Positions 3,647 through 61,212 of a DNA stretch of 64,000 nucleotides are shown here, in pieces. A program made the position numbers and the translations under genes. The notes under the pieces were generated by a model. It did not search any database, was not told the origin of the DNA, and worked only from the letters and a program-made list of their open reading frames with translations. The stretch is from Branchiostoma lanceolatum. Taxonomy: Eukaryota > Chordata > Leptocardii > Amphioxiformes > Branchiostomatidae. Numbering within the stretch: position 1 is the first letter of the stretch; every line of letters begins with the position of its first letter. The DNA lies in NCBI RefSeq assembly GCF_035083965.1, contig NC_089727.1, positions 687,501 to 751,500 on the forward strand, read 5' to 3'.

Positions 3647-6600
3647 GAGAGTGGGGCGCGCCGACCGCCAGCGCCGCCACCATCCTGGGCCTGCTCGCCG
3701 CCATGATGGTCACCTCCATCGAGTCCGTGGGCGACTACTACGCATGCGCCCGGATCTCACAGATCCCGCCGCCGCCAAACCACGCGATAAACCGCGGGAT
3801 CGGGATCGAGGGTCTGACGACTTTCCTGGCAGCCGCCTGGGGGTCGCCTGTAGGAACCACGTCTTTCAGCCAGAACATCGGAGCCATAGGGATCACTAAG
3901 GTACAGAACATGGGCATCACTAAGGTACAGAACATAGGAGCCATAGGGATCACTAAGGTACAGAACATAGGAGCCATAGGGATCACTAAGGTAACGTTAC
4001 AGAACATCGGAGCCATAGGGATCACTGAGGTAACGTTACAGAACATCGGAGCCATAGGGATCACCCAGGTAACGTTACAGAACATCGGAGCCATAGGGAT
4101 CACTAAGGTACAGACCATGGGCATCACTAAGGTACAGAACATAGGAGCCATAGGCATCACTAAGGTACAGAACATAGGAGCCATAGGGATCACTAAGGTA
4201 ACGTTACAGAACATCGGAGCCATAGGGATCACTGAGGTAACGTTACAGAACATCGGAGCCATAGGGATCACCCAGGTAACGTTACAGAACATCGGAGCCA
4301 TAGGGATCACTAAGGTACAGACCATGGGCATCACTAAGGTACAGAACATAGGAGCCATAGGGATCACTAAGGTACAGAACATAGGAGCCATAGGGATCAC
4401 TAAGGTACAGAACATAGGAGCCATAGGGATCACTAAGGTACAGAACATAGGAGCCATAGGGATCACTAAGGTAACGTTACAGAACATAGGCATCACTACG
4501 GTACAGAACATAGGATCCATAGGCATCACTAAGGTAACGTTACAGAACATAGGAGCCATAGGCATCACTAAGGTAACGTTACAGAACATCGGAGCCATAG
4601 GGATCACTAAGGTACAGAACATAGGCATCACTAAGGTACAGAACATCGGAACCATAGGCATCACTAAGGTACAGAACATAGAACATAACATTATTTTTCT
4701 TCTCTACGGACGTACAATCTACGTGGTGTCTTCACCACTGTAGAAATAGTGTATAGGTTGTTTTGTTTTATTTTCTAATCTGTTTGTCCTGTATGCTTCC
4801 CGTCCCCCGCAGGTCGCGAGCCGGCGCGTCGTGCTGTGGTCGGCGCTCATCATGGTCGTGTCGGGAGTCATCTGCAAGTTCAGCGCCATCTTCACGACCA
4901 TCCCCGACCCCGTGGTGGGAGGCGTGTTCGCGGTCGTGTTCGGTATGGTGTCGGCGGTCGGCATGTCCAGTTTACAGGTAAGGGCACTGCAGCGCGTGTC
5001 TTACGACTAGTTCACGACAAGATCACGACAAGTTCACAACCATTCCCGACCCGGTCGTAGGAGGAGTGTTGGCGGTTGTGTTCGGCATGGTGTCGGCAGT
5101 CGGGATGTCAAGCTTACAGGTAAGGGCACTGTCACGTATGTCGTGCGACTAATTCACGACAACCTCACGACCATTCCCGACCCCGTAGTGTCGACAGTCG
5201 GCATGTCTAGTTAACAGTTAAGGTCACTATAGCCGGAGTCTTTGGACATTCGTGGACATGTGTCGTAAGAAATCTAACATGATGTTGGCAGCTGGTATGT
5301 CAAGCTTACAGGTAAAGCATCTTTAGCCTTTGGTAGGCCCCGTCGCATTGGTCGTAGGCCAGGCAAACGACGGAATATTAAAGACGTTCTCACGGCAGTC
5401 GTGGTAGTGCCGTACAAAATTCAACTGTGTTGTGACGGAACAAGGTTGCCATAGGTCCTTGTCGGCAGTCAGTCTTAGCCTCGCTAAAATCGCAGGACAG
5501 AGAATCGCAAGACATGCATTTGTTGCGGCTTATGGATAAGGAAGAGGGAAGGATAAATGTAAAAAAGGAGCTGTAAAAATACCAGGGCTCGCCCGGGAAT
5601 TGAACCCGGGACCTCTCGCACCCTAAGCGAGAATCATGCCACTAGACCAGCGAGCCAGATGTACGTTTAAGTCGGTTCTTCAGCTTTGAGACCTGATTGG
5701 ACACACTTGACCGCCAGAGCTAAATAGGTAATAACGAAGATAAGAACAAGTGGGCTCCATGTGCTTAAGCTATATGAGTATATTTAGATGCTATGAAAAG
5801 TGAAATTGAATAAAGAAATGAAAGAATGCACAGGATGCAAAATACAACCAAACAGATGTTCTAATGTCAGGACAACGCATTCCCTACAATCTACAGTTAG
5901 CTATGTCAAAGAGGTTAAATATATTTAACCTCCTTGGCTATGTGTATATGAATATAGGGAGAAGAAGGTCTTCCAGAACAAGGCGACCTAAGCACCTCCG
6001 GATGAAAGAATGATAATAAAAGATTTCCCATTATTATACTGTGATCTATAATTTGTCTTTATTCATTCATTCATTCACTCACTCACTCACTCACTCGTTC
6101 ATTCATCAGTCATTCCTTCCTTCCTTCCCTCCCCTCCAGTTCGTAGACCTGAACTCGTCCCGTAACCTGTTGATCCTGGGCTTCTCGCTGTACTGCATCA
6201 TTCATTCATCCATTCATCAACCCATTCACTCACTCACTCACTCACTCGCTCATTCACTCACACTGTCGTTCATTTATCATTCCTTCCTCCCATCCCTCCA
6301 GTTCGTAGACCTGAACTCGTCCCGTAACCTGGTGATCCTGGGCTTCTCGCTGTTCTGCATCATTCATTCATTCATTCATTCATCCATCGACACATTCACT
6401 CACTCATTCCTTCCTTCCTTCCCTCCCCCAGTTCGTAGACCTGAACTCGTCCCGTAACCTGCTGATCCTGGGGTTCTCGCTGTTCCACATCATTCATTCA
6501 TTCATTCATTCATTCATTCATTCATTCATTCATTCATTCATTCATCCATCGACACATTCACTCACTCATTCATTAGTCATTCCTTCCTTCCTTCCCTCCC

Positions 6601-9420
6601 CCAGTTCGTAGACCTGAACTCGTCCCGTAACCTGCTGATCCTGGGCTTCTCGCTGTTCTGCGGCTTGATGATCCCCGGCTGGATGGCGGAGAACCCCGGC
6701 GCCATCAGGACAGGTACGGGACTTACGGTTATTAACCCTGCGGATTCCTTTTACTACAACCCTGTCTATAATTTATTACACCATTTCGTTGGCGTAAGCT
6801 GGCATGCTGCTCCGAAGTCACTCAAGAGAAACTTTTAGAGTTTGTTTATCAAGGTTGGATGAGACTGATTCGTCGTAAACTGTACTACTACGAACAGTCT
6901 ACTACGAACAGACACAACGAACATGCCAACTCTCGGACAGCCTTGTACCCCTCCCATGGAACACATAGAGATTTCCCCTAATGGTGTCGAAAAAATGCTT
7001 CAAGGTCTTAATCCATCTAAAGCATCTGGTCCAGACCAAATACCACCTTGGTTCCTCAAAATGACAGCCACCGAAATAGCACCTGTGCTAACCAATATTT
7101 TCCAACACTCGCTAGACACAGGAGAAATTCCCAAAGACTGGAGGGAAGCAAATATATGTGCCATTTTTAAAAAGGGAGATAGAGCGATCCCCAGCAACTA
7201 CAGACCTGTTTTATTGACCTGTATATCCTGCAAACTACTTGAACACATTATCCACAGCCATGTCATGTAGCACTTAGAAAGTTACAACATTTTGACGGAC
7301 TATCAACATGGATTCAGAGCAAAGCGATCCACAGAAACACAGCTTATATTAACAGTTCACGACATAGCGGGTGCACTGAACAGTAAAAAACAGGTGGATC
7401 TAGCAATACTTGATTTTACTAAAGCCTTCGATAAAGTCCCACATAGTAGACTCATCTCAAAACTGGAGTACTATGGAATTCAAGGCACTACACTAAACTG
7501 GTTAAAGGCTTTCTTGACCGATAGGGAACAGACGGTTGTGGTAGAAGGGAAGGCCTCAGCTCCAGTTAGAGTTGCGTCAGGCGTCCCTCAAGGAACTGTT
7601 TTGGGACCATTACTCTTTCTCTTGTACATAAATGACTTGCCAGACCAGCTTGATTCAAATGTGAGGTTATTTGCCGACGACTGCCTGTTATATATAGAGT
7701 TATCTACACAGAATGATTCACAACTCCTGCAAGCAGATCTGAACGCCCTCGAGGAATGGCAAAGCAAATGGCTTATGCAGTTTAATCCTGAAAAATGCTA
7801 CATCATGCACATAACAAACAAACGGACCCCAGTTGTAACCACCTACCAGTTCTGTGGACAGGCTCTAGCAACAACAAAAAGCCACCCATACCTAGGCGTT
7901 ACATTAACAGCTGGACTGAAGTGGGGTACCCATATTAACAAAGTAACAACTAAGGCTAAGCAGACATTGGGAGTGATCAAACGTAATTTGTGGGCATGCC
8001 CAGCAAAGGTAAAATCACTTGCATACACGTCTCTAGTAAGACCAAACCTTGAATATGCTGCAACAGTATGGGATCCATACACAAAGAAAGACAAGGATAA
8101 ACTGGAGAGGGTGCAGAACCAAGCTGCCAGGTTCTGCATGAACAACTATGACAGGGGTGCTAGTGTCACTAAAATGAAAGCAGATCTACAGTGGAAGTCA
8201 CTTGAAGACAGAAGAAAAATATCCAGGCTTTGCATGATGTACAAAATGACTAATAAACTTGTGGATGTACCGACTGATAATTATCTAATACCAGCCCAGA
8301 AAAGGACAAGAAATAGTCATGCCTTTAAGTACCAGAGTTATAAACCAAGGATTGATGTGTTCAAAAATTCGTTTTTCCCGAGAACCATAGTAGAATGGAA
8401 CTCGTTGTCATCAGATGCTGTAGGAACACCTTCACTAAATAGCTTCAAAGAACGATTGCAGTCAGATGAGCAAAAGTTAGGTGTGACAGGCCGTTCAGTG
8501 TAATATAACCAGCTGCTGCCGCGCCGCGTGCCTGCGAAGCTGGTGTGTTACGCCGAAGGGCGGTTATACCGGCTATACAGATACAGATACTAAACAGGAA
8601 GTTCCGAAGTTGATCCTAACAGGTCAACTTGAGGGCCAGCACACACGTCTGTTGGTGGTTATCTATTTGTTTCGTGTAGCTCAGAAGTTGACCAGATCCT
8701 GACGGTCCTCCTCAGCACACACGTTTGTTGTTGTTTATCTGTTTATTTGTCTGCCGTGCACAGGTAGCTCCGAAGTTGACCAGATCCTAACGGTGATCCT
8801 GAGTACACACATGTTCATCGGAGGTTTTATCGGATTCACGTTGGATAACACCATTCCAGGTAAGGGGGGGGGGGTCTAAAGTAGAGGTACGCGTGCAAAC
8901 AACCCGCCATCAAAAATTTACTATCAAGTACAATGACAATGACGGCTTTGTTGGACGACGTTACAACACGATAAGGTTTGGTACAACTTGCCACAAAATG
9001 CCCGTTTCTACCCTTATCAAATAAGGAAATAAATCTTACATTTACGATGATCCTTTTGCCATTTTTGTTCCTAATAACGGTGATTGCTGAATATTTTTCA
9101 TTTCTAAAAAAATAGTAGGGTTCCACACAAATATAGGTTTTAGTTTGAAACTGCGTCAGTTAATTCGGGCGTGACAATGACCTTCATCCTTCCCGGCAGG
9201 CACCCGGGAGGAGCGCGGGCTGCTCCAGTATGACGTCACCAGCGATACCCCGGATGTTGACCTTCACTACGGGTTTCCGTGCGGGAATGACCTTCTGGAC
9301 AGACTGACCTTCACCAGACACGTGCCCTTCTGTCCGACCTTCAGCCCGACCTTGAACCCCTGCTGTAGAAAACGGAACAACCCGGAAGGTGGCGAAGTAG
9401 AAATGGACGATCGAGTTTAA
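3647..9420 (+). CDS. SLC23: SLC23 nucleobase/ascorbate transporter, 3' half
   Basis: Five exons join with consistent phases and GT/AG borders: 3647-3900, 4813-4977, 6605-6713, 8764-8859 and 9200-9420 (TAA). The protein matches the C-terminal half of SLC23 (NAT/NCS2) permeases: [56 protein letters not shown], then [49 protein letters not shown], a TM helix in [19 protein letters not shown], and a cytoplasmic end with the family-like [16 protein letters not shown] fits the NAT signature (Q/E/P)NxGxxxxT(R/K/G), which contributes to substrate and cation binding in the family. SVCT-type vertebrate members have P at the first position. About 280 residues are visible. The N-terminal half is absent and would lie beyond the left edge (with the minus-strand Ig gene inside an intron), or this is a truncated copy. 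Introns hold border-derived tandem repeats, a tRNA copy and a LINE. Confidence 0.9.
3875..4690 (+). repeat. Tandem array of the NAT motif plus splice donor, ~23 units
   Basis: The array begins at the 3' end of the SLC23 exon ending at 3900 and continues to about 4690. Units are 24, 30, 33 or 39 nt, all divisible by 3, and would encode [19 protein letters not shown] or [12 protein letters not shown](K/E/Q). Each unit ends in AAG, GAG, ACG or CAG followed by GTACAG or GTAACG, so each carries a potential 5' splice site in the same phase as the real one. Units 1-6 and 7-12 form a higher-order repeat. The frame stays open until a TAG at 4741-4743, before the next acceptor (4811-4812). Confidence 0.93.
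4978..5315 (+). repeat. Decaying copies of the 3' end of SLC23 exon 4813-4977
   Basis: After the real donor at 4977/4978, the end of the exon recurs. The copy at about 5031-5119 still reads [20 protein letters not shown] and ends in CAG|GTAAGG. A shorter copy at about 5160-5220 has lost its donor. A remnant at 5283-5311 retains GTCAAGCTTACAG|GTA. Divergence increases with distance from the exon. Confidence 0.85.
5550..5735 (-). repeat. Duplicated block: tRNA-Pro plus exon 2 of the 27.7-30.9 kb gene
   Basis: The block matches 28035-28215 along its length, including the tRNA-Pro and the upstream 17-codon exon. The exon copy (5669-5719) still reads [17 protein letters not shown], but its donor GT is lost. 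It lies antisense in an SLC23 intron and is probably a non-functional exon relic carried with the tRNA. Confidence 0.75.
5585..5656 (-). tRNA. tRNA-Pro (anticodon AGG)
   Basis: On the minus strand this is a 72-nt cloverleaf without CCA. The acceptor arms GGCTCGC/GCGAGCC pair fully, with discriminator C. The anticodon stem CTCGC/GCGAG encloses loop TTAGGGT with anticodon AGG. The T arm has GGTTCAATTCC (B box), and the D arm has the A box TGGTCTAGTGG. It is identical by eye to the copies at 22090 and 28067. Confidence 0.93.
6055..6604 (+). repeat. Three extra acceptor-end copies of SLC23 exon 6605-6713, with (TTCA)n
   Basis: The polypyrimidine tract, AG and first ~55 nt of the exon ([10 protein letters not shown](L/V)ILGFSL(Y/F)) occur at 6140, 6302 and 6432, before the real exon start at 6605. 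Each copy breaks off after GFSL and is followed by ATTC/CACT tetranucleotide repeats that lead to the next acceptor. Copies 1 and 2 are in frame with each other (162 nt apart). Copy 3 is shifted (130 nt), so a transcript spliced at 6140 or 6302 would meet a stop near 6455. Confidence 0.88.
6905..8592 (+). mobile_element. CR1-like LINE, 5'-truncated reverse transcriptase
   Basis: The coding part runs from about 6923 to 8503 in one frame, broken by one TAG at 7268-7270. RT blocks are visible: [77 protein letters not shown] and the catalytic FADDCLLY. The thumb follows ([24 protein letters not shown]) and the C-terminal [13 protein letters not shown]. The endonuclease domain is missing. The 3' UTR ends in CGGCTATACAGATACAGATAC, shared with the fragments at 1329, 23073 and 37893. 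It is inserted in the SLC23 intron, and the stop makes it inactive in RT. Confidence 0.9.
8593..8763 (+). repeat. Two degenerate acceptor-end copies of SLC23 exon 8764-8859
   Basis: The start of the exon (GTAGCTCCGAAGTTGACCAG ... CACACATGTT) has related copies at about 8597-8650 and 8675-8732. The bridging sequence TGTTGTTTATCTGTTTATTTGTCTG is related in each. Copies have indels and no open reading frame. Confidence 0.7.
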
Positions 9421-9706: not shown

Positions 9707-11036
9707 GCTTAGAACAGGTGATGTAAGACTGTGCAGGCAACATTGTACTTCTTTGTTAATAGACTTATGCTTGCAATTGTACTATGCATATCTGTATAAT
9801 TATGATATGATGAAAATATACCAGTGTCGTGATGCAGTTCTTTTTTTTTATTGGCCAACCGCATTTGTTGGATCACTTCAGCCAAAACCTAAAAAAAAGA
9901 GAGAATCCCTACCTACTAGTACAGACAATTATCAGAAACGTTATCAGAAACACAACATCTGTCTTTCTCGGGCTAACATTAGGTAGTAAATTCTAAATCA
10001 CTGTGCAACTTGATAATGTAAGTAATCAAAGAAAAGGTAATCAGTAAGAAAAACAAAATCTTCGATCAGAAATCTACTTCACTGCTATTATCAATCCTAG
10101 AGGACAAGAGAAAAGTAAAATTGAAAACAAACTTGTAAACAATAAGTTTTTGAACCAACCCAACACTATACATGTTGATAATTATTATCACCATAGTATA
10201 GTTTAGTATAGCAACAAGTGTTTATAAACTAATTAAGAAGAACATTTTTATCACTATAGTGTAGTAACAAGTGTTGATAACTAACTACAACATAACTATA
10301 GCATGTAACAACTGTTTATAACTTAAAACTATAACATTATTATCACTATAGTATAGTAAAGCAACAAGTGTTGATAAACTAAGTAGAACATTTTTATCAC
10401 TATAGTGTAGTAAACAAGTGTTGATAACTAGCTACAACACCTCTATTGCTATAGTATCAACAACTGTCTATAACTTAAACTATAGCATTGTTACCACTAT
10501 AGCAACAAGAAACAAAACTAGAAAGATTGATGCTGCATGAGATACAGAATGGACTCTGAATCTTATTCCAACTTCAAGGAAATGTTGAACGAACAAAAAC
10601 AAAGGAAGCCGACTTTGGAGTCCCTTCTTATGTGAGACCATGTACATGTATGATAAGTCTTTCTCTCCATCCAGTCAACTTAACTTCTCTCAGTAAGGTC
10701 AATACAAGTACCTAAAGCTTAAGTAGACTCAATGGTATGCATGGAAGTATGGTCATAACACTTCCTCATAACACTTCCTCTCTACTTTGCACATCTACCA
10801 TATCAAACTACAGAGAACAAACTTAACTTCACCGACATTGTACCTCAAATAGAGAGCGCTTAATGAACCTGAAAAATCTCTGCTGCTTTTCTAAATTGAA
10901 GGTTATCTTATAGTTATACATTTATAAATGTTTCTTCACTCACTCCTAACGACCAGCCTGGAAGATAATTTACTCTTGAGTCAGCATGTGTCATTTTAGA
11001 CTACGTCGCTCACTGAACTGTTTGCTGCACTCCTCA
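9707..11036. other. AT-rich intergenic stretch with a minisatellite
   Basis: No gene was recognised. From about 10170 to 10510 there are 4-5 diverged copies of a unit built from TATCACTATAGTATAGTA, AGCAACAAGTG and TTGATAACTA motifs (period roughly 70-100 bp). The rest has no clear structure. Confidence 0.55.
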
Positions 11037-11041
11037 CATCT

Positions 11042-11867
11042 TTACGGTTTCTCAACAGTGTGAGTCTGCATGTGTCTCTTTAGATGACCCAGCTGACTGA
11101 ACTGTTTACTGCACTCCTCACATCTGTAGGGTTTCTCACCTGTGTGAGTTTGCATGTGTTTGCTAAGGTTACCCAGCTGACTGAACTGCCTGCTGCACTC
11201 ATCACACCTGTAGGGTTTTCCCCTGTATGAGTCCGCATGTGAGACTTCAAATGACCCAGCTGACTGAACTGCCTGCTACACTCCTCACACTTGTAGGGTT
11301 TCTCCCCAGTGTGAGTCCGCATGTGTCTCTTCAGATGACCCAGCTCACTGAACTGCCTGCTGCACTCCTCACATCTGTAGGGTTTCTCACCTGTGTGAGT
11401 CTGCTTGTGCGTTTTCAGATGACCCAGTCGACCGAACTCTTTACCACACTCTTCACACGTGAAGGGTTTTTCCCCTGTATGAGTTTGCATGTGTGTCTTC
11501 AGATGACCCAGCTGACTGAACTGTTTGCCGCACTCATCACACCTGTAGGGTTTCTCGCCAGTGTGAGTTTGCATGTGTGTCTTCAAATGACCCAGCTGAC
11601 TGAACTGCCTGCTGCACTCCTCACACCAGTAGGGCTTCTCACCTGTGTGAGTCCGCATGTGTTTCTTCAGATGACCCAGCTCACTGAACTGCCTGCTGCA
11701 CTCCTCACATCTGTAGGGTTTCTCCCCGGTGTGAGACCGCATGTGAGACTTCAGATGACTCGGTCGACTGAACTGTTTGCTGCACTCCTCACATCGGTAC
11801 GGTTTCTCACCAGGCACTTTGCCTACAACCTTTTCCTCTGCTCTTTCGTAGTCAGTGACTAGTCACC
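11042..11867 (-). CDS. C2H2 zinc-finger protein, frameshifted near the 3' end
   Basis: Seven consecutive TGEKP-linked C2H2 fingers of 28 residues each (Y-x-C-E-E-C-x3-F-x5-L-x2-H-x3-H) lie in one frame from 11817 to about 11225. At 11213-11225 one base is missing from the linker (GGGTTTTCCCC instead of GGGTTTCTCCCC), so two further finger sequences are out of frame. In their own frame the last one meets TAA at 11042-11044. The frame opens after a TGA near 11868 with no ATG, so the N terminus must come from an upstream exon that I did not find. Contact positions are nearly uniform (mostly Q/E/R at -1, H at 3, T/K/S/R at 6). It is a nuclear DNA-binding protein if expressed, and the frameshift may be real or a sequencing error. 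Confidence 0.72.
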
Positions 11868-22089: not shown

Positions 22090-22161
22090 GGGCTCGCCCG
22101 GGAATTGAACCCGGGACCTCTCGCACCCTAAGCGAGAATCATGCCACTAGACCAGCGAGCC
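22090..22161 (-). tRNA. tRNA-Pro (anticodon AGG)
   Basis: The same 72-nt cloverleaf as at 5585 and 28067: acceptor GGCTCGC/GCGAGCC, loop TTAGGGT, B box GGTTCAATTCC, all base-paired. It belongs to the left segmental-duplication unit. Confidence 0.93.
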
Positions 22162-23390: not shown

Positions 23391-23529
23391 TTTCTTCTTC
23401 ATCGATCAACTTCTTTTTTTGTACTGTAATAACCAATAAGGTTTTTATGGGAATTGTGATTCCCTATGATCATGTCCTGAATGGTTGCAAAATTAAAGCT
23501 CATCTTCTTACTCCAGAACGGCAGAAACC

Positions 23530-24009
23530 ATGGCAACAAACAGCAGTGGCTCTGGCGACTTGGAGAGAGGATCAGGAGGAGGATTTTCGAACAGGAGAGC
23601 CACAAATCAACCCTACAGGTGTGAGGAGTGTGGCGAAGAGTTCACTACGCTGGGAAACGTGAGGACACACATGCGGGCTCACACCTTGCAAACCCACAGC
23701 CAGTACAGGTGTGAGGAGTGTGGCGGAGAGTTCACTACATTCGAAAACCTGAGGACACACATGCGGGCTCACATCTACAGCCAGTACAGGTGTGAGGAGT
23801 GTGGCGGAGAGTTCGCTACGCCGGGAAACCTGAGGACTCACATGCGGGCTCACCCCTACAGGTGTGAGGAGTGTGGCGAAGGGTTCACGCTGGGAAACCT
23901 GGGGACACACATGGGGGCTCACCCCTACTACAGGTGTGAGGAGTGTGGCGCAGAGTTCACTACGTTCAGAAACCTGAGGACACACATGTGGTGTCACCTA
24001 CAGGTGTGA
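23530..24009 (+). CDS. C2H2 zinc-finger protein, five fingers with short linkers
   Basis: An intact 159-codon ORF. An N-terminal MATNSSGSGDLERGSGGGFS is followed by five C2H2 fingers of the form YRCEECG(E/G/A)EF-x5-L/V-x2-H-M-x-x-H. Linkers are not TGEKP but short or variable (AHTLQTHSQ, AHIYSQ, AHP), which should reduce processive DNA binding. Finger 4 lacks two residues between the second Cys and the helix (GEGFTLGNL), and finger 5 ends H-M-W-C-H. After the stop an out-of-frame fragment still resembles a sixth finger (QFGELGDLKEHMKSHM). ATG context (ACCATGG) is excellent. Probably a nuclear DNA-binding protein, and the sibling of the pseudogene at 20.25 kb. Confidence 0.7.
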   Translation: MATNSSGSGDLERGSGGGFSNRRATNQPYRCEECGEEFTTLGNVRTHMRAHTLQTHSQYRCEECGGEFTTFENLRTHMRAHIYSQYRCEECGGEFATPGNLRTHMRAHPYRCEECGEGFTLGNLGTHMGAHPYYRCEECGAEFTTFRNLRTHMWCHLQV

Positions 24010-27749: not shown

Positions 27750-30700
27750 TCAGGTGGGCTTCTTGTCGGAGAGTCGCCGAAAGTCTTCGGAAGTAGCCGA
27801 CGGCTCACCGACTTCACCCGATGCACCACGATTGTCACCGAACGGTTCCGAAGATCTGTCGATGTTTTCCGACGGTTTCTCGTACCTCTTGGGCCCCGTC
27901 ACTCTCCGAGGGAAGTCGTGGAGGGACTTGCTCTGAAAAAGGAGAGAAAGAAAATGAAAAAAGGAAACTGATTGGATACAGAGTTACAGACATTCATTTA
28001 TGATATCAAATCAGCACTTCACCTCATTCTCTATGCTATAAAGAGATTGTGAATGTAAAAATACCAGGGCTCGCCCGGGAATTGAACCCGGGACCTCTCG
28101 CACCCTAAGCGAGAATCATGCCACTAGACCAGCGAGCCGATGCACTCACCAGCCGGTTCTTCAGGTTTGACAGCTGATTGGACACACTTGACCGCCAGAG
28201 CTGAAAAGTAAAGGAAAAGTTACTGTTACGGCTATGAAATCATGCGCTTGATATAAAAACAACAGCAGAATACTGCTACATATATAGATATCAAATGCGA
28301 CGCTTACACTGACGATGTTGCACTTTGATGATGATGATTTGGTTTATTTCATATCATTAAAAAGTATCACAGTTACGCATTGCACGCGACGTGTGCACTG
28401 AATTGAACTGGGACTACATTATACATTATCATCTTCATAAAATTATTTACAATTGCCTTAACTTATATACGAGGTTTTCAGAACATTAAAATAGGTGTAG
28501 TGACAATATTTTCTTATACAATACGAATATATCCGGTTACATTGTATTAACAATATAGATTCATAAACAGGACATGTTTCAGATACAATACGATTACATT
28601 ACAGAAACCGCATCGGTGCTTAATCTATGAATACAATAAAATAAAATAACACTCAGGTACTGGTGCTTTTCGTTATTATTGACAGCATGTTGCTGTAACA
28701 GGTCTCTTATTTAGTATAATGATAACATGTAACAGGTCTCTTCATGACTTAGTAATGATACCATGTATGGTATCGGGCTATTTCTATGGCGTGCTGTTCT
28801 GGTTTTGATAGTGTTCAACTGTTGACTATTGCGCGTATTCCTGCCGCTAACATCTTGTCGGGTTGGCGGGAGCCAGTCGCAGAAGGTGGTAGAGTGAAGT
28901 AGCTTTCTGGCGAAAGATTCACAGAGGTAGTCGCGTCTTTGCTGCAACGTCGTGAGACCCAGTGTGAGGCACGCGTCCAAGTAGTTTCTATAGTGGGTCC
29001 CTAGGATTGTTCTGACTGCTCTACGTTGTATCCTCTCCAGTTGAAGTCTCTGGGACAGCGTTATACCAGGTTGCCAGACCGGTACTGCGTATTCACAGGT
29101 CGGACGAATAAAACTCGTATAAATGGTGACAAGGTCCTCTCTGGTTACTCCGAATGACTTAAGTCTCCTCTTTAACTAACTAAAGTTTAAGTCGAGCTCG
29201 GAATTATGTATTGCTTGTGTTGGATCAATTTTCTAACTACTGTTATACTACGCTACAAGTATCCATGAAATGTTGATACGCCTGCCCACACGATTGAAGC
29301 GTTAGAGAGATACAGGACAAACTTTGTTAGTTTGACTGTTCAGGACGCAAATGGCAGAACTGCATGCCCAACTAGAATCAAACTAGACTTTGGCTAGGCC
29401 TAGCCATACTGTTACAAAGGCCTAGCCCTATGGCTACTGACAGAAAAAAGACATTACAAATGGAATTGAGGGTTAAGCATGGACAGAATAACAAGCAGTA
29501 AGGAAGTAAGCCGCTGCGTCCTCTCCTCCCCTACATGCATCTATAATTACCTTCGCCAAGAAGGTTATGCAGAGGGTACCGTTTGTATGTATGTATGGAG
29601 GTATGTAGAAGACCAGAATAACTAAAGAACGCCTGGATGGATTGTCTTGATATTTGGTATGTTGGTAGGTCTTGGTGAGACATTTTTTTTTATTTTATTC
29701 TGTCATATTTATCCAGGGTGGCCCTGCTCAGTGGTTACCACTGCTTTTCAGAGGGGCCCTGCCATACATAAAATAACTGATAATACAAACAGAAATATCA
29801 ACATATAGAAATGATAATAATAAAGATAATAATGAAAACAATGAAGGTAATGATAACAATAGTAAATAAATGATAACAATCATAGTACAAATCATAATAC
29901 AAATCATAATACAAGTCAAATCATAATTAAATCCGTTCCTTGTCATTGAGGGGTCAGAGGTCATGCCTGTCCTTGCCAAGTGTTACATTTGTTTTTAAAG
30001 ACAGACATGGATGAAGAAGTCTTCATAGATTGTGGCAGTCGGTTCCACATAATCGCACCTCTATATGAAAACTTGCGCTTTCCACATTCAAGGCGTACTA
30101 GCGGCAGTTTCAAGGATAGATTCAGACATGAAAATTATTAGATTTTGGGCCACCTAGCGGCTTGTTATAAATGTGTCCGGGATTTTTAACGTTTCTCTCC
30201 CTTCACAGAGAAGGAAGAGAAACGTTAAACTTTGAATCCCGGACACTCCTACCGCACTCTACCGAAACCTCGAGCTCTACTCGGAGAATATCCGCTACAA
30301 CATATGACGTATACGCGTAACGTTACCTCTACGGGCTCCCTCCGTTCCTCCCACGGCACCCTACGCGCTCACCCCCGCCCGAGTCTGACCCTATACCCCC
30401 GGCCCCACACACGCACCTCCACGGGTTCCCTCCGCTCTTCCCTCGGCACGTGCACCCTACGCGCTCACCCCCGCCCGAGTCTGACCCTATACCCCCGGGC
30501 CCACACACGCACCTCCACGGGCTCCCTCCGCTCCTCCCTCGGTGCCCTACGCGCCCACCCCCGCCCGAGTCTAACCCGAACCCCCGGCCCCAGGTACGCA
30601 CCTCCACGGGTACCCTCCGCTCCTCCCACGGCACCCCACGCACCCACCCCCGCCCGAGTCTAACGCTAACCCCCGGCCCCACACACGCACCTCCACGGGC

Positions 30701-37715: not shown

Positions 37716-40700
37716 CGAAGTCGTGCAGGTAGGGGGTGGAGAAGAATCTGTCTATCCTCTCGCCGACCCTCCCCTCCCCCCCGTCCACGCACCCCTTCCC
37801 CCCGCTGGTGAGCTGCCTCCCCAGCCAGACCTCCACCTTCTGTAGCCACGACTCCAGCACATCTGTAAATACAAATAATATGTCACAACTATGTGACAGG
37901 CTGTTCAGTGTAATATAACCAGCTGCTGCCGCGCCGCGTGCCTACGAAGCTGGTGTGTTACGCCGAATGGCGGTTATACCGGCTATATAGATACAGATAC
38001 AGAAGCTGGGGTATTGCGCCGAAGGGTGGTTATACCTGCTATACAGATACAGAAGCTGGTGTGTTATGCTGAAGGGCGGTTATACCGGCTATACAGATCC
38101 AGATACAACTCTGATACAAAAACAGTCACGTAAATCTTTACATATATGTGGTATATCAACATTTGCAGCCGTGTCTCCAGTAGATCTGTGGCAGGGATAC
38201 AAACATTTGTCACAACTCTGATGTAAAAACAGTCATCAACACTGCAAAACCTGAAATAAATAAACATTCGTCGATGAAGGTGAAACATTCAAGGTAACAT
38301 TTATTAAAGCAGCTGATAAAATGTTTGCAATAAAGCGTTTGAAATTTTATCCAGTTGCTTGAATATCTGTTACCTTGCGTTTACAAAGATTCGGTCACAA
38401 TGTTGATACAAAAACTACTTGACTACTGTAAATCTTGAAATAAGGCCACACCAATCTACCATGGATTTTTTTCAATTTTAGCAAAAATAAAATCATGACA
38501 ACAGAAGGCCGGGGTGAAAACTTGCACCTGACCCTGTTCACTCCCTGATACTGTGTGCACCAAAGTACAAACTTTCTTCTGAGATTCTGTTTTCCTGTTG
38601 ATTTTCCAATCTAGCATTTTTTAAAAAGTCTGTTAAGTAACCAAGAAATTAGAATGGTGTGGCCTAAACGTGGTATATTATAACAGTTGCAGCCACGTCT
38701 CCAGGGCACCTGTGGCAGAAATACAAACATCAGTCACAAGTCAAAATACAAAAGTCAACTGTGTTGGATAACGCAAGATTACAGTATGATTAATCATAAA
38801 GACATTCCTAACTTTTGATCCAATGATGCAAAATGTAAATGCTGCAAACATTGATGAATTTACAGTATTGGCCATAAATGTAATCAGAAACTGCACGGTT
38901 AGACAGAACTTCAGTTGGCAGTGAAACAGTCAAAACATGAGCCATAAACATTAAACTACACATTTCTAAAATAGAAAGAGAGCACACGAGAGCAAATAAC
39001 TGCATGAAACACTGTGGACTTCAGCGCATGTATTCCAGTCGTGTACCACACAGACTTTGTTCGCCAGCCTAGTGCCTATTCACAACATCATTCAGGCTTC
39101 AGCACTAAGGCCAGATCAAACCAGGCTTTCACAGCCTGTTAGACAGAGGGCAACGAACTCTGGGGATCTAGAGTTCAGTGACCCCTCAGATTACTTAGGG
39201 TTCATAGACCCCTCAGGTGATTAAGAGTTCATTGACCCCAGAAGATCAAGTCTTTTGAGACCACTTATGAGAATCAGAGTTAACTGACCCCTCTCTGCCA
39301 GGTCGGGGGCTCAGCTGTTGCCATGGAAACATGCCTAAAAACACTTATCAGGCCATGGCTGCCTGTAACACAGCAATCCACTGGAGACATGACTGTTTCC
39401 TGTACATCAATTAGAAGACAGAAAGAGTTTGAGTTTATCAACTTTTTTCATTACTTTGACCCATTCAATGCGTTGCCAACCCTACCCAACTCGTCCAAAA
39501 GGGAGTGGAAACCCTTCTTAATCGTCATAAACGTCTTCTGCATCTTGTGGACACTTGGAATTACCATCGATGCAACCGGGTTCTGTCTAGAAATGACGGC
39601 AGTGTAAGGTCACCTACAAACCGGCAAGGCCTCCTGGTAAAGTGATGTGTATTTGATTGGTGGACCGTGTCAACAAACAAACTGTGAGTACAGCCCTCCG
39701 AACGTCCCTGAGTATCTGGAGAATTTCCACCTAATGCCTGCAACACTTGTACCATTTCAACATGACAACAACGATCCCGCTATGCTATAAACTCTCAAAC
39801 TGCACCTTGAATCTACAGCCATTCACTGTACTGTTACTAGTGTTAGTCATTCTACCTGTTCATTTCTTAGCATCACCAAGTGGAGTGTATTTAGCCCCAA
39901 AAGTTGGCCAGGAAATGCCCAGCCCGCATACCTCTACATTATCGTCACATGATGAGTCCTCCTGTGTTCCCTGTGGTATTTGTGAAAGGACAGTAGGATG
40001 GAGTGTCCGGGGTATTGAGTGCGAGACCTGTGGAGGATGGTTCCATGCATCGTGTCAGAACATTGGAACCCAGTCTTACTCTGACCTCGGTGCCTCGGAT
40101 GTCAAGTGGTTCTGCGATTTCTGTCATGCACCAAATTACAGCACGGTGGCCTTCGATCTACATGGGGTCGAGGGTGAATCCTTTAACCACGAGTCTAGTA
40201 GTACAAGTACAAGCAGTGAAAACCTCACGTTTTGCTCAGACGACTCCTTTCACCCGATACACAGCTCTACTCCAACTCGTCAAAGACAACAAGATAAGAA
40301 CACAAATCGTCCACTACGTATATTAAACATAAATTTCCAATCTGTTCGTGGTAAAGTGCCGGAACTAGCCAATCTCATCCAAAGTCTTAGACCAGACATA
40401 ATTCTTGGAACAGAAACATGGCTGGAAACGCCGGGAATTAGTTCTAGCGAAATATTCCCCACTGGCTACTCAAAAACTTACAGAAAAGACAGGAACAAGC
40501 ACGGTGGAGGAGTCCTCGTAGCCGTGTCAGACCTCCTGGAGGCTACGATGGAGACCAGCCTTGACAGGAACTGTGAAATTGTGTGGGCCAAGGTCAAGCT
40601 TAAAGGTAAAAGGGACCTATTGATTGGCAGTTACTACCGGCCACATGTAGGACTTGAGGACAGTATGAAAGAAATGGCAGAGTCAGCAAGATTAGCTTGT

Positions 40701-43700
40701 CAATCCAGTAATGCTATTGTCGTCCTTGGAGGCGACTTCAACCTGCCTGACTGGGACTGGAGGGAGAGAACATTGAAGCCGGGTTCTTCTTACCCCAATA
40801 TCCATCGACAGTTCATGGATATCATCAGTGACTTAGGAATGGAACAGATTGTAGAAAAACCCACAAGGGGAGCAAACACATTGGACATCATAGTGACAAA
40901 CCACCCCTCTCTGTTTCCTCGTGTTGAGATTGTACCTGGCTTGTCCGACCATGATATCCCCTATGCTGAACTCCAAATAACAAATGCTCGGGTTCGTCAG
41001 AAAGAACGGCACGTCTTGTGCTTCAAAAAGGCTGACTGGGAAGGCTTACGGAGGGCAACAAAAGAAATGACAAACTCAATCCAACAGAGCCAACAGATCT
41101 CTTGGCTTCATCCGTCGAAATATCAGAATTAACAGCAAAGCCATCAAGGAAGCAGCCTACAATGCCCTTGTGAGATCGACCCTTGAATACGCGAGTACGG
41201 TGTGGGACCCGTATACCGCCAAAGACATTCATGCTGTAGAGAAAGTCCAGCGTAGGGCCGCCAGGTGGGTATGCTGCCGCTACCGCCAGTCGTCAAGTGT
41301 AGGTGACATGTTACAGGACCTTCAATGGGAATCCCTTCAAACAAGAAGGAAGAGAGCTAGACTCGCAACCTTCTACAAGGTGCATCACGGTTTCGCCACA
41401 GTCGACTCACAGTATCTACCCTCGGTCAGCCGACCAAAACGTCAGACAAGACGGCTCCACCCCTTGTCTTACGACATCCCCTTCTGCAGAACGGCCTACA
41501 GACAGTTTTCATTTTTCCCGCGGACAGTTGCAGAGTGGAACTCTTTGCCTTCAGAGATGGTCGCTGCCCCCTCCCTGGCGTCTTTCAGGGACAGGGTGAC
41601 CCACCTCCACTAGACCCAGCTAGTCACCAGACACCTTCACCCCCCCTCACAACCGGTACAGTCAACAGAAAACCTTTCCCAGCACAAGCACTACATTCAA
41701 GAGCAGCAGATTCATCATCAAGTTGATGTTGGCTGCCCAACCTCGAAGAAGAAGAAGAAGACAGGGACTTTCTGGTAGCTTTGAAATATGGCGTCGGCGT
41801 GGCGTAACGGTTAGAGCATTGGACTCAGAACCAATAGGTCCCTGGTTTGATACTCACCATGCCCAGACGTTGTGCCCTTCGGAAAGGCACTTTACATGAC
41901 CTTCCCTGACGGTGGATGGTTTCAACCGAGCCACTTTGGCTAATCTGTTTAGATGTGTGCCAAAAACACACTATGGATCTGGTGCGCCAATATGCGCCAA
42001 TATCTGCACGTTGACATCCACCAAGAGCCGTTAAAATTTAGAAAAAAAATATATGGCTGCTTTATATGCACATTTTTCAGAATTATGGAAAGTGACTCCT
42101 ACTGTTAAAACAAAGCTGGCAATTTCTCCTAGCTGTGATAAATCCATCAACTTTTAGGCATGACAACACAGAGTAAGACAATACGCCACCAGTTTAAGCC
42201 CAGTCCAGTATGATGCTACATTTGTAAACATTACCGATTCACACTCTATAGACTTGTGGACACTGACTCCTACTGGCAAAACAAAGCTCGCCATCCCTCC
42301 TAGCTGTGAGCTGCAAACTTTTGCATTTTGAGGGGTGTGACGACTAGCTGGCTGCTGCCCACCCCTGTGTCAGGGACCCCGGCAGCAGTTTAATTAAATA
42401 CTGGGTACTACTTTAGCACTTCTACTGTTTGAAGACAAGCTGGTGACCCAGTGTGAAGCTGACTGCTGCCCACCCCTGTGTCAGGGACCCCGTATATAGC
42501 AGTGTGATCAAATACTGTATATTGCTACACCTACATCCCTGACTTATGATGGCTTCTGGTTCAGCCATGGAGCTTAGTTGGTGTTTGCAGCAGGAAAGTT
42601 AAGGGTAAATGTAGTCCCATAGTACAGAATTTCCCCTGAGACTCTGTTTCAAGAGTGCCAAGAACTCAGGAAATAAATTGGTGTGGTATATGCTAATTTC
42701 TCTATCCTTTTCTATCCTGTATATTTTGTTTGATCTTTGTTTATTCATGAGACTGAAGCTCAAATCGGCCTGCAGGGCGCTTCCATGAGGGAGTCAATCC
42801 CTTTCTGTGCTCTATAAATGCTGAATCGAATATGTCTGGTCTTTTCTTGGCTAGTTTAGCCGTGCGTCATGTCTGATGGTTTTTGTAGACATAATTGCTG
42901 TGTACGTGAGCATGTCTTCTAGGTAAGGTAGAATTGTTGCATACATAGTCAGCTTAAGATCTATGTCTGTATGTATGCAGTGAGTCCTCTGCTCATTATA
43001 ACTCACAGACATGTAGAGATTTCTTGGTAATCGTAACTGCAAATCAAGTTAGGCCAAACCAATGCGATTGGTTGTTTCTGGGATTTGAGACAAAAGTATT
43101 TTGAGGTGGAAGATCAACATGAAAACAGAGTCTGAGTGGAAAGTCTGCACCATAGTACACACAGTTTCATGGTGAATTTAGTTATATTCAAGTTTTACTC
43201 CTCGCTTTAGGCCAAACCAATTTTATTTGTTGGTTCTCGGATTTTGAAACGACATGCTCAACTGGAAAAACAAAATGAAAACGAAGCATGAAGACTTATG
43301 GTGCACTCAGTTATTGGGAGTGAATACGGTCAGATTCGACTTTTCTCCCTACCCACTTTTTTTAATGATGTCTGCCTTCTATGCATTTCCCTGAAAATAC
43401 CCAATAACCAATAAAGAAATAAATCGGTGTGTCCTTGTCTATAGAGGTCCACAAGTTGTAGAATAAACTTTGTGAACGTCAAATTTTCCTCCATGCCTTC
43501 TGCTTGAATGATGTCTGCCTTCTGTACTTTCCAATTAAAATGCACAAGAACCAATAAAGGGAATAAATTGGTATGGCTTTATCTATGGAGGCTTAGAATA
43601 TACATTGTGAACACGTATGGCCATGCTTATTGGATGCCCACACATATTGGACATTTTTTATTCGGTGTCTTGAAGGCATTTTTAAAGATAAGACGATATC

Positions 43701-60582: not shown

Positions 60583-61212
60583 CCAGGCTGGGTAAACAAC
60601 ACATGATCATGACATGACATCACCCCCCTCCCCTTCCAGTCTCACATGATCATGACATGACATTACCCCCCTCCCCTACCAGTCTCACATGATCATGACA
60701 TGACATTACCCCCCTCCCCTACCAGTCTCACATGATCATGACATGACATTACCCCCCTCCCCTACCAGTCTCACATGATCATGACATGACATTACCCCCC
60801 TCCCCTACCAGTCTCACATGATCATGACATGACATTACCCCCCTCCCCTACCAGTCTCACATGATCATGACTGACATGACATGACCCCCCTCCCCTACCA
60901 GTCTCACATGATCATGACATGACATTACCCCCCTCCCCTACCAGTCTCACATGATCATGACATGATATCACCCCCTGACCCCTACCAGTCTCACATGATC
61001 ATGACACGACATGACCCCCCTCCCCTACCAGTCTCACATGATCATGACATGATATCACCCCCCTCCCCTACCAGTCTCACATGATCATGACATGACATTA
61101 CCACCCTCCCCTACCAGTCTCACATGATCATGACATGACATTACCACCCTCCCCTACCAGTCTCACATGATCATGACATGACATTACCACCCTCTCCTTC
61201 CAGTCTCACATC
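60583..61212. repeat. Minisatellite, ~43-bp unit, about 14 copies
   Basis: The unit is TCTCACATGATCATGACATG, then ACATTACCCCCCTCCCCTACCAG. Variants carry ATATCACC, an extra CTGACATG, or CACCCTC. Each unit contains TGATCATGA, a palindrome, and a pyrimidine-rich tract ending in CAG. Confidence 0.92.

Follow-up and report, generated by a model that had tools for sequence, protein, structure and literature searches.

A mirage-like array of splice-donor copies in an SLC23 transporter gene of amphioxus

Introduction

Which donor is used when the 3' end of an exon, its splice donor included, is followed by many more copies of itself? This question is raised by an SLC23 transporter gene in the window, by which we mean the whole 64,000-nucleotide stretch of Branchiostoma lanceolatum DNA analysed here. 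The repeated exon end encodes the NAT signature motif, which lies in the transporter core and is conserved. An earlier note on this DNA offered two readings: that any copy could serve as a 5' splice site, giving transporters with 0 to ~23 extra signature motifs, or that the first donor alone is used and the array is an intronic minisatellite.

The original amphioxus Adh paper is reportedly that of Canestro et al. 2002. Ebner et al. 2010 (PMC3087553) describe minisatellites made of copies of exon-intron boundaries, termed mirages, in B. floridae and B. lanceolatum; we draw here on parts of that paper and of PMC3902484. The cases in those parts are Adh3, in both species, and the globins BflGb6 and BflGb9 (PMC3087553), together with PGBD5 and troponin C (PMC3902484). 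Adh3 mirages have units of 10–72 bp, AG or GT signals in many units and unstable lengths; length variation is reported for both Adh3 and BflGb6, and the Adh3 data and globin RT-PCR are said to suggest that regular splicing is undisturbed (PMC3087553). For PGBD5, nearly the whole of two repeats becomes an exon in one database model, which lengthens the protein by 57 residues and is set aside by the authors (PMC3902484). The portions of a huntingtin paper that we drew on (PMC2206037) mention tandem repeats, and repeated boundaries were not met there. The mirage literature found by searching consists of gene-by-gene reports only. Among the literature matches listed, no title concerns an SLC23 mirage, and those listed for amphioxus/SLC23/ascorbate transporter do not mention amphioxus.

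Results and Discussion

An SLC23 gene with ordinary coding exons

Five exons of the gene, here called A to E, were mapped in the window, and their coordinates are shown in Table 1 with those of the associated arrays. Exon A is 100% identical over the 84 queried residues to a B. lanceolatum protein of 615 aa (P0001) and 96% identical to P0003 of B. belcheri. Exons B to E likewise match P0001 by tblastn, and the five exons together encode its C-terminal part, about residues 335–615. Residues 1–330 of P0001 gave chance-level matches only in a tblastn search of the 64-kb window, and they are presumably encoded upstream of it. The Xan_ur_permease domain (PF00860) and the NAT signature are both present, the latter taken as (Q/E/P)NxGxxxxT(R/K/G), the pattern as stated in the earlier note; the proposed SLC23 identity is borne out by the Pfam and PDB matches listed in Table 1. 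Exons A–E encode an ordinary SLC23 C-terminal part of the kind found in SLC23A1 (PDB 8jew, 7ytw) and other SLC23 / NAT (NCS2) transporters, and the locus differs from these in an oddity that is confined to its non-coding surroundings. The donor of exon A is AAG/GTACAG (the slash marks the boundary) at 3900/3901, in phase 0.

Table 1. Exons of the SLC23 gene and repeat arrays at its splice boundaries (positions in the window)
Feature	Position	Strand	Evidence and remarks
SLC23 exon A	3647-3900	+	Pfam PF00860 E 7.7e-21; PDB SLC23A1 E 2e-24; NAT signature at 3' end
Tandem array, 24 complete units, one donor-like GT each	3871-4671	+	Direct sequence, TRF
Higher-order repeat, a 207-nt block of six units present twice	3961-4374	+	206/207 identical; TRF period 207
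Degenerate partial unit closing the array	4672-4690 (end approximate)	+	Direct sequence
Intron A-B	3901-4812	+	912 nt, of which the array makes up 771 nt (85%)
SLC23 exon B	4813-4977	+	Pfam PF00860 E 3.5e-13; tblastn with P0001; donor CAG/GTAAGG at 4977/4978
Second boundary array, exon B end and donor	5033-5311	+	TRF period 142; tblastn 5033-5119 96.6% identity, E 4.7e-11
Third boundary array, 3 extra copies of exon C acceptor and exon start	6137-6485	+	tblastn, sequence
SLC23 exon C	6605-6713	+	P0001 mapping (tblastn) and sequence
Fourth, weakest boundary array, 2 diverged copies (near 8594 and 8676) of exon D acceptor and start	8594-8722	+	DNA repeat search, tblastn
SLC23 exon D	8764-8859	+	P0001 mapping (tblastn)
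SLC23 exon E, last, with stop codon	9200-9420	+	tblastn: 73/73 residues identical to P0001

Structure of the array at the exon A donor

Each array unit runs from CAG to AAG and continues with GTA or GTAACGTTA, and so consists of the last 30 nt of exon A plus 3 or 9 intron bases. The first unit lies inside exon A, with its GTA intronic, and the other 23 are wholly intronic. Ten units are 33 nt long, nine are 39 nt and five are 24 nt. The 24-nt units are without 9 nt between two internal ATAGG-like repeats, which leaves them an exon-derived part of 21 nt, and the 39-nt units carry an additional ACGTTA that creates the palindrome GTAACGTTAC. In all there are 13 distinct unit types, arranged in an ordered pattern. 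TRF finds the array independently, both at the level of the unit (3909–4681, period 33, score 694) and at that of a larger block (3871–4614, period 207, score 1117); the block at 3961–4167 directly adjoins its duplicate at 4168–4374. Because this block of six units was duplicated, the 24 units do not count as independent. A chance origin of the similarity is ruled out by near-identity over 801 nt, and the unit core, searched with up to three mismatches, occurs 19 times in the window, every time within the array.

This agrees in part with the original description of the locus. The tandem repetition of the exon end and its GT does extend to about 4690, and every unit end (24 of 24) reads AAG, CAG, GAG or ACG followed by GTACAG or GTAACG. 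The unit lengths were given as 24, 30, 33 or 39 nt; three of these occur, all multiples of three, but 30 nt does not (n = 0). An amplification of about 23-fold holds for the exon end and its GT, found in 24 complete units and thus 23 beyond the exon's own, but not for the signature itself, which is kept in 15 of the 24 and lost in the five 24-nt units and in four others that end in GAG or CAG.

Near-identical units and a block duplicated at 206 of 207 positions are hard to assemble, and the length or copy number of the array could for that reason be an artefact. There is precedent for such difficulty, since the BflGb6 mirage is described as apparently misassembled in a draft genome (PMC3087553) and the copy number of the PGBD5 repeat as differing between two assemblies (PMC3902484). 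However, re-examined Sanger data and new Illumina data are stated to have upheld the original PGBD5 sequence (PMC3902484), and the ordered succession of 13 unit types also argues against an artefact here, which we consider very improbable. There is little doubt that the array exists, although its exact copy number could be wrong.

The open reading frame and the protein evidence

All 24 array donors are in phase 0 with exon B, and the phase-0 junction proposed with the exon at 4813 is therefore right. The frame stays open from exon A through the array to a TAG at 4741–4743. These two features speak for a functional reading, in which several array donors are used to yield SLC23 isoforms with 8 to 256 extra signature-like residues, in phase with exon B, as a source of protein variety.

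The frame is open by inheritance, since the repeated piece is an exon piece joined to a codon-sized scrap of intron. Seven sites vary in the array, with ten distinct changes that we classed by hand from the table of unit types; three are synonymous (ATC and ATA, GGG and GGC, ACT and ACC) and seven nonsynonymous, and random change would give 2.5–2.6 synonymous changes of ten. The probability that ten changes create no stop codon is 0.74 in the case of the 33-nt unit and 0.65 in that of the 39-nt unit, and one frame on the reverse strand of the array is also free of stops. Multiples of three carry little weight because the length changes reduce to about two kinds, namely the 9 nt between the ATAGG-like repeats and the ACGTTA. 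With so few kinds of length change, such probabilities and a synonymous share as expected, we reject the conserved frame as proof of coding. The open frame is explicable without selection and we see no signal of coding constraint, the independent changes being so few that a weak constraint would be missed.

Protein models point the same way. P0001, P0002 (a floridae x belcheri hybrid) and P0003 (B. belcheri), which are predictions, one per species, all read ITKVASRR with no extra unit; in the window, ITK/VASRR is the junction of 3900 to 4813. No array-bearing protein was present among the best 120 of 187 exon A matches listed (proteins of about 275–875 aa). The matches listed include one B. 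lanceolatum cluster at 100% identity, with P0001 as its single member sequence; the other Branchiostoma entries among them are 64–67% identical and presumably represent paralogs. A query with the array region returned nothing at E<=0.001 among the 7995 scored candidates sharing most words (proteins of about 275–875 residues), in a search where, by our estimate, the overlap with P0001 is too small to pass and a protein carrying the array should pass.

Functional isoforms are thus opposed by the absence of an array-bearing protein in both of these searches, by substitutions that look neutral, by loss of the signature in nine units, and by the position of the insert, which would hit the very motif that is conserved in the transporter core. 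We regard them as very unlikely, even though the frame and, as described below, donor strength would permit them.

Donor strength and accessibility

We scored the donor of every unit, as the earlier note had suggested, in bits from a human donor frequency table. By this table the first donor, AAG/GTACAG, scores 4.16 bits and is exceeded by nine of the 24 array donors (6.37–7.41 bits), with CAG/GTAACG at 7.41 bits, which supports the view that the latter lies closer to the donor consensus; the three other donors of the gene, at 8.13–11.48 bits by the same human table, are well above the first array donor. That nine inner donors outscore the first is the further point in favour of functional isoforms mentioned above.

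The GTAACG donors are located in the palindrome GTAACGTTAC. Folded in silico with a 150-nt span, the nine have a mean unpaired probability of 0.31 over the donor and the 15 GTACAG donors one of 0.53, the ranges overlapping. This is suggestive only, but the stronger donors may be self-paired and on average less accessible, which is a possible reason for their not winning. Folding of the array as a whole gives a z of -8.14 against 20 shuffles, a value to which we give little weight because shuffling destroys the repetition.

A bolder functional proposal combines these elements into a ladder of 24 in-phase donors, adding 0 to 256 residues, in which the self-paired, stronger GTAACGTTAC donors would set the choice and copy number would vary between animals; we find it very improbable. 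A more modest proposal is that splicing noise brings inner donors, especially the CAG/GTAACG copies at 4068 and 4275, into use at a low level, and that the rare extended transcripts so made have no function. The donor scores fit this, as do the many near-identical donors competing within 771 nt and the remark that mirage copies could act as cryptic splice sites (PMC3087553), but the stronger donors are, in the folding model, the less accessible ones, and the Adh and troponin C mirages are reported without aberrant mRNAs (PMC3902484). As a positive account we hold such noise to be doubtful but well within reach. It is compatible with an intronic minisatellite; that inner donors are used at a low level is quite possible, and that such use is functional is unlikely.

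Three further boundary arrays in the same gene

Local copies occur at four of the nine splice boundaries and in three of the four introns of the gene in the window. In the second array, the donor copy at 5119 is intact, that at 5217 is degenerate (CAGTTAAGG), and a third lies at 5311 (CAGGTAAAG); the spacings, counted from 4977, are 142, 98 and 94 nt, none a multiple of three, and the frame read on from exon B is closed by a stop at the 11th codon beyond the exon end. The third array has acceptor CAGs at 6137, 6299 and 6429 ahead of the true one at 6602, with spacings of 162, 130 and 173, of which 162 is a multiple of three. The fourth, with spacings of 78 (a multiple of three) and 88, shows DNA-level similarity over 47 nt at 87% and 20 nt at 90%; tblastn gives E 0.005 for 8678–8725 and E 3.2 for 8594–8665, and one of the two exon D copies is thus backed by DNA alone (the 20 nt at 90%). 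Taken together, six of the eight spacings in these three arrays are not multiples of three, about the chance level. We consider this the strongest internal argument against the view that such arrays are maintained here for their frame.

We asked whether arrays are targeted to splice boundaries, and do not claim that they are. Four of the nine boundaries have a local copy that scores at least 50, a threshold chosen afterwards to equal the score of the weakest of them (the exon D acceptor). Of 2000 random positions outside the gene, 17.2% reach this score (binomial P 0.053); against the 1924 positions left by a complexity filter, P is 0.039. In a whole-window control of 1500 positions, with four boundaries placed one base off, 38 positions equal or beat the A donor, 197 the B donor, 32 the C acceptor and 244 the D acceptor. 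Because tandem repeats abound in the window, targeting is not established.

A probable intronic minisatellite derived from a splice boundary

The exon A array appears to fit the published kind of amphioxus mirage and is best regarded as a probable new example of a known phenomenon. As in the mirages described in the parts of the two papers used here (PMC3087553, PMC3902484), it consists of tandem boundary copies, many with splice signals, of a type found at 5' or 3' boundaries of cephalochordate genes. Its 24 units of exon end and GT span an exon-intron boundary, their lengths of 24–39 nt fall within the 10–72 bp given for Adh3 (PMC3087553), the host is a cephalochordate gene by the complete identity of exon A to P0001, and the 207-nt duplication shows the homogenised blocks of tandem-repeat turnover. 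It differs from them in that all unit lengths are multiples of three with the frame open throughout, in that the repeated exon end is a transporter signature motif, and in size, with 24 units here as against 6 and 3 reported for BflGb6 and up to 7 for PGBD5 (PMC3087553, PMC3902484). There is also a likeness to the Rogers model of intron gain by tandem duplication of AG/GT proto-splice sites, as cited in PMC3087553, since duplicated boundaries provide spare splice signals; unlike in that model, the array here is known without a new intron.

In what we hold to be the best explanation, the exon A donor boundary gave rise to an intronic minisatellite. It would have started when the last 30 nt of exon A and the first intron bases were duplicated in tandem, and slippage and unequal exchange, including duplication of the 207-nt block, which looks recent, would then have produced the 24 units. 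The spliceosome would pick the first donor (3900), removing the other 23 copies with the intron, and the product would be an ordinary SLC23 transporter. We think it very likely that the first donor serves most or all transcripts in this way, because of the mirage precedent, the three sister arrays with their mostly out-of-frame spacings, the lack of any sign of coding constraint, the three clean ITK/VASRR models, and the loss of the signature in nine units. Against it, the first donor is not the best-scoring one, being exceeded by nine of 24 and lying well below the other three donors of the gene; both the GT and a length divisible by three are kept in all 24 units; and the clean junction is read from predicted proteins, one per species. 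Of the two readings put forward originally, it is the minisatellite that emerges better supported. The other was sound as to phase, all 24 donors being in register, but no protein with extra motifs was found among the models and matches described above, and the signature itself, kept in 15 units, is not amplified 23-fold.

The locus adds a large, short-unit example to an amphioxus habit, in a gene with copies near four of its nine mapped boundaries. Such genes are test beds for how the spliceosome chooses among near-identical donors, and for whether boundary duplication feeds intron gain.

Other features of the window

Intron C-D of the gene contains a LINE-like element with a reverse transcriptase domain (RVT_1, E 2.1e-31) at 7271–8500. 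An open frame at 39735–41129, in which a PHD finger is combined with an endonuclease/exonuclease/phosphatase domain, probably belongs to another element of LINE type. At 8545–8577, shortly before the exon D boundary copies, lies GTGTTACGCCGAAGGGCGGTTATACCGGCTATA, which has its sole exact match in the window there; the TRF consensus of an array at 37946–38107 holds a very similar stretch, and this is possibly a mobile-element fragment.

At 60600–61211 a 43-nt unit is present in 14 copies; most of them contain a pyrimidine-rich stretch that closes with CAG and is acceptor-like on the plus strand. This could be either another boundary array or an ordinary minisatellite; we do not claim it as a mirage, as no exon was identified next to it. 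Kelch motifs are found on the minus strand in the 59–64 kb stretch. C2H2 zinc-finger stretches with coding tandem repeats occur at 11008–11862 (period 84) and 23497–24009. Finally, the 64 kb contain three identical tRNA-Pro(AGG) genes, at 5585–5656 (inside SLC23 intron B-C), 22090–22161 and 28067–28138 (minus strand), with partially similar flanks; local duplication or a tRNA-related element is a possible source of these copies.
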